Below are positions 20,867 through 43,721 of a stretch of 64,000 bases of DNA, piece by piece; within the stretch, counting starts at the first letter, position 1; each line of letters opens with the position of its first letter. Position numbers and translations under genes: made by a program. This stretch comes from Clostridioides difficile. Lineage in GTDB: Bacteria > Bacillota > Clostridia > Peptostreptococcales > Peptostreptococcaceae. Location of the stretch: contig NZ_JRHN01000047.1 in the NCBI RefSeq assembly GCF_001299635.1, positions 124,001 to 188,000 of the forward strand, written 5' to 3'. Under the pieces are notes generated by a model, which searched no databases, was not told the origin of the DNA, and was given only the letters and a program-made list of their open reading frames with translations.

Positions 20867-22255
20867 TTATACTTCTTTTATCATATTAGGAGATAGAACA
20901 TCATTAAGAGCTTCTGTCATAGTTGGATGTGCATAAACACGGTCTCTTAAATATGTGTACTCTACTTCTAAATCTATAGCTAATTGAATTAAGTGGATAA
21001 TCTCACTTGAATCTTCACATATCATAGTAGCTCCAAGTATCTTATTTGATTTTTTATCAATCACAATCTTTATAAAACCATCTGTCTTACCGATTTGCTT
21101 AGCTCTTGGAATCGCTTCGACTGGCATCTTTGCTACTAATACTTCATATCCTTTTTCCTTAGCTTGTTTAACATTAAGACCAACTCTTGAAAATGCTGGA
21201 CTTATAAATATAGAATTTGGTATATTTTTTCTATCACTATTGCTTCTAGTCTTATCTCCAAATAATTGATTAATAATTATACGATAGTCATCTAGTGAAA
21301 TATAAGTAAATTGTGGACCTCCATTTATATCTCCTATAGCCCATATATGCTCTTTGTTAGTCTTAAGAGTATCTGATACTTTAATAAATCCCCTTTCATT
21401 TAATTCTATACCTGCATTTTCTAGTCCTAACCCCTCAGTATTTGCCTTTCTTCCTGTGGCTACAAGTATCATATCGCTTGTTAATTCCTGTAATTTACCT
21501 TCTATTTCATACTCTACTATAGCTAAGTTAGAAACTTCTTTAATTTCTTTTATCTTTGTATTATTTATAATTTTTACATTTCTCTTTTCAAGTAGTTTTA
21601 TTATTTCTTCTGAATCCTCAGTATCTTCATTTGGTAAAATACCATTATTAGAATTTAATATTGTAACTTCTGCTCCAAATGAACTGTAAATACCTGCAAA
21701 CTCTAGACCTATAAAGCCAGCTCCTATGATTGTCATTTTTTTAGGTAGAGTCCTTAGATTCATAAGAGACTCACTATCATATACTACATTTTTATTTTCC
21801 ACACCTTTAATATTAGGTATAAATGGTCTTGAACCAGTATTAACAAATATCTTGTCTGCCACTAACTCATAAACTTCATTTTCAGTTTTAACTTGAACTG
21901 TATTTTCATCAATAAAAGTTCCCATTCCTGTGAATATAGTTACATTATCATTTGAATTTAATTTATTATAGTTAACTTCTCTAAGTTTTGTAATTAAAGT
22001 TTCTTTTTTATCTATAGCTTTCTCATATTCAGCTTGAGCTTCTTCCCAAGAACTTATATATTTCGCTTTTACACTGTTTGCCGAGTTCTCTAAACTTTTA
22101 GTTGGTATACATGCCACATTTATACATGTTCCACCATACATCTTATTTGATTTTTCTATTAAAGCTACTTTTAAGCCTTTATTTGCTAAATCTCCTGCTA
22201 ATGTTTTTCCACCTTTTCCAAATCCCATTATTATTGCATCAAATGTTTTTTTCAT
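20867..22255 (-). CDS. RclA/Har-family flavin disulfide reductase (hypothiocyanous acid reductase-like)
   Basis: A 462-residue FAD-dependent class I disulfide reductase. The N-terminus IIMGFGKGGKTLAGDLANKG closely follows the RclA/Har pattern, and the redox pair is C44/C49 in GGTCINVACIPTK. NAD(P)H binding is at IIGAGFIGLEFAGIYSSFG, the second FAD motif at IWAIGDING, and the dimer-interface region at YAHPTMTEAL. RclA and Har reduce HOSCN and protect bacteria from host peroxidase products; the specific substrate here is inferred from family resemblance. The gene has its own promoter with the shared palindrome at 22324-22341. Upstream lies a CcdA-TlpA fusion and an HxlR regulator, so the neighbourhood concerns thiol redox stress. 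Confidence 0.85.
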   Translation of the reverse strand: MKKTFDAIIMGFGKGGKTLAGDLANKGLKVALIEKSNKMYGGTCINVACIPTKSLENSANSVKAKYISSWEEAQAEYEKAIDKKETLITKLREVNYNKLNSNDNVTIFTGMGTFIDENTVQVKTENEVYELVADKIFVNTGSRPFIPNIKGVENKNVVYDSESLMNLRTLPKKMTIIGAGFIGLEFAGIYSSFGAEVTILNSNNGILPNEDTEDSEEIIKLLEKRNVKIINNTKIKEIKEVSNLAIVEYEIEGKLQELTSDMILVATGRKANTEGLGLENAGIELNERGFIKVSDTLKTNKEHIWAIGDINGGPQFTYISLDDYRIIINQLFGDKTRSNSDRKNIPNSIFISPAFSRVGLNVKQAKEKGYEVLVAKMPVEAIPRAKQIGKTDGFIKIVIDKKSNKILGATMICEDSSEIIHLIQLAIDLEVEYTYLRDRVYAHPTMTEALNDVLSPNMIKEV

Positions 22256-22294
22256 ATAATTTTCAACCCCTTCTTGTATTATTTATACTTTTAC

Positions 22295-22341
22295 TATAAC
22301 AAGATTATCTAGGTAGTACAATTAGGCACTTTTTTGTAACC
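22295..22341 (-). promoter_or_regulatory. Composite promoter/operator of the Har-like gene (HxlR-type site)
   Basis: On the minus strand GGTTAC-AAAAAA-GTGCCT (22324-22341) is followed by AA, then the -35 TTGTAC, a 17-bp spacer and the -10 TATAGT. The same composite is found upstream of hxlR (24180-24228) and trxA (43673-43721). A palindrome ending 2 bp before the -35 is an activator-like position. Confidence 0.75.
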
Positions 22342-22379
22342 TTAAATTGATTTGAATCCTTATATTTAAACATTTTAAT

Positions 22380-23657
22380 CTATTTATTTCTTTGATTCTC
22401 AATAAAAGATGCCATAGTCTCTTTATCCATAGCTCCTGGAATATACTGAGTTACATATCCTTCTTTATCAATTATAAACGTAGTTGGAAAAGCATTAATT
22501 CCATATTGATACGCTAATGCTCCATCTTCATCAAGTGCAACAGGGAAAGTATACCCTTCTTCTTTTAAGAAGTTAATCACATGTTCTCTTGAACCTTCTC
22601 TACCCAAATTAGGTGAAGCTACACCTAAAATTACTACATCTTCATTATTTTTCTTATAGTCTTTGTATAGTTGTTCTATGTGAGGCATTTCTTCTTTACA
22701 TGGAGGACACCATGTAGCCCAGAAATTCAAAAACACAACTTTACCTTCATAATCACTTAATTTATGTGTCTTACCATATTGGTCTGTTAGAGTAAAATCA
22801 ATAGACTTTATTCTCTCTTCATCTTTAGCTCCTGATTCATTATTTCCATCATTAGAGTCTTTTTGACCACCAGTATCACTAGAGCTATCTTCTTTATTAT
22901 TAGAATTTGCTTGTTTATTATCTTCCTGATTACTTTCAATTTTACTATTTTGTGGGATATTAAAATGTTTGCTTATACTCCCAAATCCATTTACCATCAT
23001 TAATATTCCTGATACTATAAGTATAAGCCCACCTATTTTTTTAATAATTTCCATGTTGGATTTTATCTTGTCTATAGTTTTAAAAAGTTTACTATAAAAC
23101 ATAGATGTAATTATGAATGGCAAAATAAATCCAATAGTATATACTGCTATTAAAAGATTTGCACTAAGGTGATTGGTTGAACTTGAAACCATTACTAATA
23201 CAGATGCTAGTATCGGTCCAATACAAGGTGTCCACCCAAAACTAAACGTAAAACCTAATATAAAAGCTGTTATTGCTTTCATTTCTTTAAACTTTACATT
23301 AAATCTTTTTTCTCTATTCAATATTGAAGATTTAATTATTCCCATGTAAAATAAGCCCATGATAATAATTATAATCCCACCAATGGACATTATTAAATCT
23401 TTATTCTCACTAAAGAACATACTCAAAACTCTTACTGATGAACCTAATATAAAAAATGTTGTCGAGATTCCAAGAGCAAAGAATATAGTATTTTTAAATA
23501 GAGAACTTCTTATAAAATTTGTCTTTCCTTCTTTTAAACTCTCTACACTACTATTTGATAATATACTCAAATAAATAGGCAAAATTGGCAATATACATGG
23601 TGAAAAGAACGACACCATACCTTCTATAAATACTAAAAATAAATTTACATTTTGCAA
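22380..23657 (-). CDS. CcdA-TlpA fusion: membrane thiol-electron transporter with extracellular thioredoxin domain
   Basis: Residues 1 to about 235 are a CcdA/DsbD-type membrane domain, with conserved cysteines in SFFSPCILPILP and FGWTPCIGPIL. A charged, Asn/Ser-rich linker (about 240-285) leads to a TlpA/ResA-like thioredoxin domain with WATWCPPCKEEMP, followed by GINAFPTTFIID. CcdA passes electrons from cytoplasmic thioredoxin across the membrane to the outside thioredoxin domain. The fusion puts donor channel and acceptor in one chain. The start is TTG at 23657, 9 nt after AGGAGG. The gene follows hxlR by 46 bp and probably shares its transcript. Confidence 0.9.
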   Translation of the reverse strand: MQNVNLFLVFIEGMVSFFSPCILPILPIYLSILSNSSVESLKEGKTNFIRSSLFKNTIFFALGISTTFFILGSSVRVLSMFFSENKDLIMSIGGIIIIIMGLFYMGIIKSSILNREKRFNVKFKEMKAITAFILGFTFSFGWTPCIGPILASVLVMVSSSTNHLSANLLIAVYTIGFILPFIITSMFYSKLFKTIDKIKSNMEIIKKIGGLILIVSGILMMVNGFGSISKHFNIPQNSKIESNQEDNKQANSNNKEDSSSDTGGQKDSNDGNNESGAKDEERIKSIDFTLTDQYGKTHKLSDYEGKVVFLNFWATWCPPCKEEMPHIEQLYKDYKKNNEDVVILGVASPNLGREGSREHVINFLKEEGYTFPVALDEDGALAYQYGINAFPTTFIIDKEGYVTQYIPGAMDKETMASFIENQRNK

Positions 23658-23703
23658 GCTAAAATTCCTCCTTATTTTATTTCCAATATTAAAATTTTAA
23701 GAT

Positions 23704-24036
23704 TTATTTATCACAGTTTAAGTTTTTATTACTCCACATTATCATTTTTTCCATAACAGGAAGTAATAGTAATCCTGACTCACTTAAAAAATAGGTTGAC
23801 TCTACAATATTATTAACCAACCTTTTTTTCTTAACTATAATCTCTTGTTCAATTAAAAAATCTAATTGTTGAGTTAGCATTTTCTTACTACACTCTGGTA
23901 TAGCTCTTTGTAACTCTCCAAATCTTTTTTTATCTTTTTGTATTTCCCATATTATTATAGCTACCCATTTTTTACCTAATATACTAGATAAAGCCTCTAC
24001 TGGACAATCATATATCATGTCATCTATATTGTACAT
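23704..24036 (-). CDS. HxlR/DUF24-family regulator, probable thiol-stress sensor
   Basis: The 110-residue protein is a complete HxlR (DUF24) winged helix: CPVEALSSILGKKWVAIIIWEI, then RFGELQRAIPECSKKMLTQQL and ESTYFLSESGLLLLPVMEKM. The cysteine at position 11 corresponds to the conserved redox cysteine of YodB and HypR, which sense quinones, diamide or hypochlorite; further cysteines are C49 and C108. Three promoters in the window share a palindrome suited to a dimeric winged helix, one upstream of this gene. It is therefore proposed to be the regulator of its own operon, the Har-like gene and trxA. Confidence 0.88.
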   Translation of the reverse strand: MYNIDDMIYDCPVEALSSILGKKWVAIIIWEIQKDKKRFGELQRAIPECSKKMLTQQLDFLIEQEIIVKKKRLVNNIVESTYFLSESGLLLLPVMEKMIMWSNKNLNCDK

Positions 24037-24179
24037 TTTACTCTCCTCTTTTCTTTAATATTAAATAAATTGTTATAACAGTATGTGTTTATAGGTATTA
24101 TGTATACTTCTAACCTTATTTAATTAAAATTTTTATTGTATATCTCCCTAAAACAAATTATTTTAAGTTTCATGTAATT

Positions 24180-24228
24180 AATATATCAGTTTTATATACA
24201 TATCACAATTGGTCACTTTTTTGTAACT
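24180..24228 (-). promoter_or_regulatory. Composite promoter/operator of hxlR-ccdA/tlpA
   Basis: AGTTAC-AAAAAA-GTGACC (24211-24228, minus strand), AA, -35 TTGTGA, 17 bp, -10 TATATT (24180-24185). Transcription would start near 24172, giving a leader of about 135 nt. Confidence 0.75.
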
Positions 24229-43672: not shown

Positions 43673-43721
43673 AATATACTACGACCCATGTAACAGTTCA
43701 ATTAGTCACTTTTTTGTAACT
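43673..43721 (-). promoter_or_regulatory. Composite promoter/operator of trxA (HxlR-type site)
   Basis: On the minus strand AGTTAC-AAAAAA-GTGACT (43704-43721), AA, -35 TTGAAC, 17 bp, -10 TATATT. Base for base this is the layout seen at 22295-22341 and 24180-24228. Confidence 0.78.

Follow-up and report, generated by a model that had tools for sequence, protein, structure and literature searches.

Origin of the question and three copies of a composite promoter

Two neighbouring transcription units of Clostridioides difficile, one encoding an RclA/Har-like disulfide oxidoreductase and the other an HxlR/DUF24-family transcription factor together with a CcdA-TlpA fusion protein, share a composite promoter in a 64,000-nt stretch of contig NZ_JRHN01000047.1 (assembly GCF_001299635.1, positions 124,001 to 188,000; hereafter the window). 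An earlier note, made from the sequence alone, took this element to define a thiol-stress regulon of the HxlR protein. Which genes does the element mark, and would HxlR be the protein that reads it? Searching the whole 4.28-Mb genome (66 contigs) for the composite with up to three mismatches, we found exactly three matches, all perfect and all upstream of thiol genes or hxlR. The shared composite does mark a regulon, as the note had held; the third member, a thioredoxin gene (trxA), had been missed. The composite also goes with the HxlR orthologue across genomes, which supports the regulon, and judging from sequence HxlR (23704-24036) very probably controls these promoters.

A pattern scan of the window placed both promoters of the earlier note on the minus strand with the predicted order of an 18-bp operator, AA, a TTGNNN -35 element, 17 nt and a TATANT -10 element. 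The har composite, 22341..22293, reads GGTTACAAAAAAGTGCCT-AA-TTGTAC-17 nt-TATAGT and extends two bases beyond the left edge of 22295 that the note had given. The hxlR composite lies exactly where it had been placed, 24228..24180, reads AGTTACAAAAAAGTGACC-AA-TTGTGA-17 nt-TATATT and has a TG before its -10. The third perfect copy, 43721..43673, ends 33 nt 5' of the thioredoxin open reading frame (ORF). The start sites (+1) given here are predicted by analogy with an A that is conserved at offset 55 in related promoters.

22324..22341, minus strand: predicted HxlR-type operator of the har-like gene, an imperfect inverted repeat GGTTAC-AAAAAA-GTGCCT
22293..22321, minus strand: har-like core promoter, TTGTAC at 22316-22321, 17 nt, TATAGT at 22293-22298, predicted +1 at about 22286
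24211..24228, minus strand: predicted HxlR-type operator of hxlR-ccdA/tlpA, AGTTAC-AAAAAA-GTGACC
24180..24208, minus strand: hxlR core promoter, TTGTGA at 24203-24208, 17 nt, TATATT at 24180-24185, predicted +1 at about 24173
43704..43721, minus strand: predicted HxlR-type operator of trxA, the third copy, AGTTAC-AAAAAA-GTGACT
43673..43701, minus strand: trxA core promoter, TTGAAC at 43696-43701, 17 nt, TATATT at 43673-43678, predicted +1 at about 43666

The 18-bp element is indeed shared, and its description as a palindrome needs tempering: the outer base pairs match at 3/6 positions in the har operator, 4/6 in hxlR and 5/6 in trxA, around a central A-tract. The three promoters are 83-94% identical in the operator and 15-55% identical in flanks and spacer; with the likeness confined to the motif, they are not recent duplicates of one another. 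In relatives, the operator has the left half RGTTAC (or RGTAAC), an A-rich centre and, mostly, the right half GTGCCT.

The composite is far rarer than the operator on its own. From the base composition of the window, 3e-8 exact composites would be expected by chance, or 0.002 with up to three mismatches, and the reversed control pattern gave no match in the whole genome at that threshold. Leaving out the -10 and searching for the operator followed by AATTG still returned only the same three sites, none of them at an unrelated promoter. Within the window, the operator with up to three mismatches has four matches (three perfect, one at three mismatches), a number reached in 0 of 100 shuffled sequences; genome-wide, the operator alone at this threshold gives 54 matches versus 47 for the reversed control. 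Five unrelated two-mismatch operator sites in the same genome (L003-L007) all lack AATTG after the operator, and we therefore claim no further regulon members there.

A leader of about 137 nt (window 24037-24173) separates the predicted hxlR start site from the ATG, and the distance from the hxlR -10 to the ATG is 141-147 nt in all eight genomes of the genus. No Rfam family matched the leader, or any part of window 20000-46000 at gathering thresholds, so no RNA regulation was seen there.

Co-inheritance of the composite and HxlR

Among 71 genomes of the same family, 25 contain the composite with up to three mismatches, and none contains the reversed control. In 22 of the 71, HxlR has a close orthologue (identity 65-100%, E at most 4.4e-44). 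Of the remainder, G030 has a fragment at a contig end (E 1.8e-20), and the rest have genes at E values of at least 2.7e-17 or nothing. The composite was found in all 22 genomes with a close orthologue versus 3 of 49 without one (Fisher p 2e-15). Counted by genus, it occurs in 8/8 with the orthologue versus 0/15 without (p 2e-6). The genomes share ancestry and are not independent trials, so these p-values are only a guide.

A scan of named genomes with the alignment of orthologues found 79 loci, several of them from genomes that were also in the family survey. Allowing up to five mismatches and leaving one A-tract position free, we found the composite in 27 of 30 loci from relatives with 49-100% HxlR identity (L144-L173), a count that omits L174 (operator without full composite) and L175 (truncated gene at a contig end, no composite). 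It was absent from all 47 distant HxlR loci (L176-L222), many of which belong to unrelated organisms that are perhaps less AT-rich, making chance matches rarer there; the reversed control gave none. Among the three exceptions, L157 has a perfect operator with AATTG and a -10 one base further, and L150 and L160 come from species with composites elsewhere (G028, G025). The operator with AATTG, at up to two mismatches, has 40 matches in the 27 loci L147-L173 and none when reversed; it is missing from all 47 distant loci and from 27 unrelated stretches taken from the source genome.

The regulon wiring reaches Clostridium species and one Paucilactobacillus. In Paucilactobacillus suebicus, HxlR is only 44% identical and keeps all three cysteines, and a Har-like gene transcribed divergently from hxlR is preceded by an operator of like form, with TTT after it in place of TTG. 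Across the order, 322 genomes outside the family were scanned for the composite; only 2 have matches, all at three mismatches.

A locus in another family of the order (L223; G208:C116:178000-197900) contains, within 20 kb, 11 operator-like sites RGTTACNNAAAAGTRCRTAC (up to two mismatches); in many of them TT occupies position +2 and the -10 has the same spacing as in the composite. Next to the sites lie two HxlR genes without an equivalent of C49, and several of the sites precede genes for small GCGC-bearing proteins. This is a sibling system: the right half of its site differs, and it has HxlR genes of its own. We rejected G208, one of the two matching genomes outside the family, as a carrier of the same regulon.

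Promoter geometry

The geometry was counted at 44 operator sites in L147-L173, loci that were picked by protein with no promoter demanded. TTG stands at +2 from the operator in 38 of these sites, and the best -10-like hexamer lies at the offset of a 17-bp spacer in 25; the reversed operator has three sites in the same loci. Outside the family, TTG is at +2 in 21 of 24 operator sites. In a larger set of 105 operator sites, TTG follows at +2 in 92 and the -10 keeps its standard offset in 75, counts that are inflated because the loci were mostly fetched for holding the composite. The search pattern itself partly dictates the invariant GT/AC bases of that set, and we give them no weight.

Across the 92 sites, TTG is the only part of the -35 that is conserved. 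The -10 is preceded by a TG (T in 86, G in 68), and an A occupies offset 55 in 84 sites. If this A is taken as the start site, the operator spans -55 to -38, with its centre at about -46.5. The weakness of the -35, the extension of the -10 and the fixed position of the operator next to the -35 argue, we infer, for a protein that touches RNA polymerase.

Genes behind the composites

The three promoters of the source genome lead to the following genes.

20867..22255, minus strand: har-like gene, an RclA/Har-like FAD-NAD(P) disulfide oxidoreductase of 462 amino acids
22380..23657, minus strand: ccdA-tlpA, a fusion with DsbD_TM and Redoxin/AhpC-TSA domains
23704..24036, minus strand: hxlR, an HxlR/DUF24 transcription factor of 110 amino acids with C11, C49 and C108
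43322..43639, minus strand: trxA, a thioredoxin with WCGPC, C. difficile trxA2 by gene order

The har-like product contains the CxxxxC redox motif GGTCINVACIPTK, a Pyr_redox_2 domain (PF07992) and a dimerisation domain (PF02852). Its two best families are RclA (NF040477, 518.5 bits) and the hypothiocyanous acid reductase MerA (NF041853, 493.5 bits), despite scores below the curated cut-offs of 740 and 650; the name Har chosen by the earlier note thus fits the clade and is approximate as a label. The best solved relative is 6kgy (E 4.8e-116), with 8ajj, 8uub and 8ajk also among the top five. The CcdA-TlpA ORF matches PF02683, PF08534 and PF00578, contains the CxxC motif WCPPC and is probably in one operon with hxlR, from which it is separated by a 46-nt gap. 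The thioredoxin ORF scores 118.3 bits against TIGR01068, above the cut-off of 96.8, and is flanked by an aminotransferase-like ORF and a phosphotransferase system (PTS) region. These neighbours agree with the trxA2 neighbourhood and CD3027-CD3032 as described for C. difficile (PMC10880999; this and the other articles cited here are drawn on in extract), which by synteny suggests that the gene is trxA2 (CD630_30330).

To define the content of the regulon in relatives, we counted 81 composites (up to four mismatches) in the window and L092-L138, of which 79 have a first ORF of at least 80 residues within 1200 nt, the exceptions being L138 and the second site of L093. Sixty of these 79 lead to a gene for thioredoxin (22), a Har-like enzyme (15), HxlR (8), an SDF-family transporter (7), a thioredoxin reductase-like protein (6) or CcdA-TlpA (2), and four more have singleton first ORFs. 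The assignments at L102, L108, L120, L124, L127, L131 and L135 are loose, at 255-1030 nt; several operators may serve one gene, eight of the genomes form one genus, and some sites with three or four mismatches, such as L137, are probably chance matches. The thiol-disulfide theme of the earlier note is thereby broadened, with thioredoxin at the third site and with thioredoxin reductase and a possible cystine transporter in relatives. Relatives of the SDF transporter on plasmids are annotated as L-cystine transporters (35-38% identity) and as sodium/glutamate or dicarboxylate symporters (39-42%); given these mixed annotations, cystine as the substrate is a guess.

Sixteen further genomes reached via the loci (L163 was left out of this search) contain 35 composite matches, versus two for the reversed control. 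Loci were available for 30 of the 35; with L227 (two mismatches, chance-like) lacking an ORF and L251 repeating the L238 site, 29 sites were counted. At twenty of them, the first or second gene is trxA, har, ccdA-tlpA or hxlR, and this holds for 18 of the 20 perfect sites. For 17 of 24 distinct orthologues, a composite stands on the same strand 0.17-1.8 kb upstream of hxlR, so autoregulation is common and not universal.

Three side observations concern these downstream genes. In G004 and G006-G010 (L093, L097, L098, L101, L102, L105), the first trxA composite has another one after it, no more than about 0.6 kb away. In four of the six loci this second composite directly precedes a thioredoxin reductase-like gene, in the trxB4 position; L093 and L102 have no gene of this kind called there. 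Another recurrent first gene behind the operator encodes a conserved protein of about 100 amino acids that has cysteines and belongs to no Pfam family (L109, L123, L125, L130, L132, L235, L241); trxA or hxlR sometimes comes next. In four genomes, isochorismatase-like genes, a label based on the weak Pfam match that a shortened piece gave, stand behind operator-like sites with one to three mismatches (L110, L250, L255, L256), which are perhaps sites of a related HxlR with slightly different specificity.

The HxlR protein and its cysteines

The regulator matches the HxlR winged helix PF01638 over residues 19-107 with 70.2 bits (cut-off 20.8), in agreement with the family named in the earlier note. 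Its scores against the NCBIfam models RrpB (47.5 bits, cut-off 175) and RrpA (31.9 bits, cut-off 185) fall below both cut-offs. The best solved relative is 7kd3, and Bacillus subtilis HxlR, YodB and HypR are also among the solved relatives. In the named-genome collection, the protein is 100% identical to those of C. difficile HC132 and CD160.

C11, the cysteine singled out by the note, is present in every orthologue aligned: 24/24 family sequences and 31/31 sequences of the named set (L144-L174), two sets that overlap. C49 is retained equally in both, and the C-terminal cysteine (C108 here) in 23/24 and 30/31. C11 aligns with the CP motif of YodB. C49 heads the segment CSKKML, and no cysteine lies opposite it in the solved-relative chains displayed.

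Proposed mechanism and its alternatives

We propose that HxlR activates its three-promoter regulon from a site centred at about -46.5, an account that we consider fairly probable as a whole. An HxlR dimer would bind the inverted repeat GTTAC-N6-GTNMC, whose end is 2 bp away from the -35; this -35 is poor, with TTG alone, and an extended -10 comes after it. The conserved cysteines (C11 with C49 and/or C108) would be oxidised under disulfide, O2, hypochlorous acid (HOCl) or electrophile stress, and the oxidised, bound protein would help RNA polymerase to start transcription. The output would be a thiol-repair set consisting of thioredoxin, the RclA/Har-like reductase, the CcdA-TlpA membrane relay and more HxlR. 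Thiol oxidation is a likely inducing signal and, provided that HxlR is in control, activation is its likely mode of action, with slightly less assurance. Host-derived oxidants, which the earlier note named as the trigger, are a candidate signal.

Published expression data on trxA2 bear on this proposal. Transcription of the gene starts at a sigma-A promoter and is induced at 1% O2; for the O2-induced trxA1B1 and trxA2, a 'common still uncharacterized regulator' has been suggested (PMC10880999). In RNA-seq, trxA_2 (CD630_30330) was the most expressed thioredoxin gene; several trx genes were up at 1.5% O2, with trxA_2 checked by quantitative PCR (PMC8767335). The extracts of these two accounts of trx expression do not mention hxlR, har or ccdA-tlpA, and we found no paper on the C. 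difficile HxlR regulator in the open-licence PMC text, outside which most subscription papers and preprints lie. HxlR may be the activator, so far missing, through which trxA2 (and trxA2-trxB4) responds to oxidants, representing a thiol-homeostasis regulon of many Clostridia and at least one lactobacillus and acting from a polar operator locked at the -35 (about -46.5), a possibility that we see as evenly poised. If so, thioredoxin, a ferredoxin-type thioredoxin reductase, the RclA/Har-like enzyme, CcdA-TlpA and, in some genera, cystine uptake would respond together. The proposal would cover trxA2 only and not trxA1B1, with no further composite in the source genome. Only part is known of how C. 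difficile senses thiol damage on meeting O2 and the oxidants of neutrophils; our analysis supplies a candidate regulator, an exact predicted operator at three promoters and a small gene set, and the motif is portable for locating the same regulon in other gut anaerobes.

Several observations weigh against this account. An operator placed against the -35 could also suit repression, and autoregulation would fit a repressor just as well. HxlR might thus be a thiol-sensing repressor in the style of YodB and CatR, repressors of its family that thiol modification inactivates (PMC6943732): in its reduced form the dimer, sitting next to the -35, would block RNA polymerase, and oxidation would free it. 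We regard this as unlikely, if well worth keeping in view, since the -35 is kept only as TTG while the operator holds its distance and orientation (38 of 44 sites), an arrangement more typical of an activator in contact with RNA polymerase. Outside the family, the best -10 is at the standard offset in only 12 of 24 sites, and the geometry is less rigid there. As to the signal, a study at 5% O2 that is cited in PMC8767335 saw no significant change in trxA_2.

The identity of the binding protein can be questioned as well. The genome has eight HxlR-family matches, so a paralogue could share the sites; three genomes (G057, G067, G068) carry a composite without a close hxlR; four hxlR orthologues have the composite only downstream, just past the gene; and three (L113, L116, L119) have none in the surrounding DNA examined. 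A different regulator, an HxlR paralogue or a member of another family, with hxlR merely among its targets, is nevertheless improbable in view of the co-inheritance with the HxlR orthologue, seen across 71 genomes and as far as Clostridium and Paucilactobacillus, the absence of the composite from the distant HxlR loci and the position of hxlR behind the composite in most orthologues. In G057 and G068, the promoter is followed by a start codon, some 10-12 trxA-like codons and a stop (L131 at 2309; L138, minus strand, at 1559); these lone promoters are probable scars of a regulon lost along with its regulator, and the single three-mismatch site of G067 looks like a chance match. Some composites also precede genes without a clear thiol role, isochorismatase among them, and the 79 first ORFs include five SH3-NlpC/P60 proteins, five LPG_synthase_C proteins and five copies of the unnamed 100-amino-acid protein. 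An A-tract and a TG before the -10 can aid RNA polymerase on their own, and both are present in the motif columns. That the motif is a mere promoter feature of this kind (an UP-like element with an extended -10), without a dedicated regulator, has very little probability: many genes would be expected to carry it, yet the genome has three copies, all at hxlR or thiol genes, and matches outside the family are confined to the two genomes with three-mismatch sites. Activation by HxlR remains the reading that we prefer.

Comparison with known systems

HypR (YybR) of B. subtilis belongs to the same HxlR/DUF24 family (4a5m, E 1.2e-10) and has its second cysteine at position 49. By aligned ranges, C. 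difficile C11 falls on HypR chain position 14. Residues 10-106 of the C. difficile protein lie on HypR 13-108, which, going by the ranges, would put C49 at HypR 51-52; HypR C49 would then align 2-3 residues before C. difficile C49, and we do not equate the two. Cys14 is named for HypR, which is activated by thiol modification, with induction of its regulon (PMC6943732). HypR controls hypO, whereas the C. difficile set comprises the thioredoxin, Har-like and CcdA-TlpA genes.

YodB (5hs7, E 4.1e-12, CP motif aligned) and CatR, also from B. subtilis, are of the same family. Like HypR, they sense by an N-terminal cysteine, and YodB Cys101 has also been seen modified; azoreductase, nitroreductase and catDE genes are named in their regulons (PMC6943732). 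The C-terminal Cys101 of YodB lies near C. difficile C108, and YodB has no cysteine opposite C49. B. subtilis HxlR (7bzd/7bze/7bzg), the second-best solved relative, is deposited as a transcriptional activator and is more specific to aldehyde detoxification (PMC6943732).

By sequence, the C. difficile har-like reductase belongs to the same clade as RclA of Escherichia coli and Har/MerA of Gram-positive bacteria, below the curated cut-offs of both. RclR is an activator of the AraC family and not an HxlR protein. For the trxA2 and trxA2-trxB4 genes of C. difficile (PMC10880999), the third composite is, by synteny, the trxA2 promoter, and where a reductase-like gene comes after trxA, in four genomes of the genus, a second composite sits just ahead of that gene.

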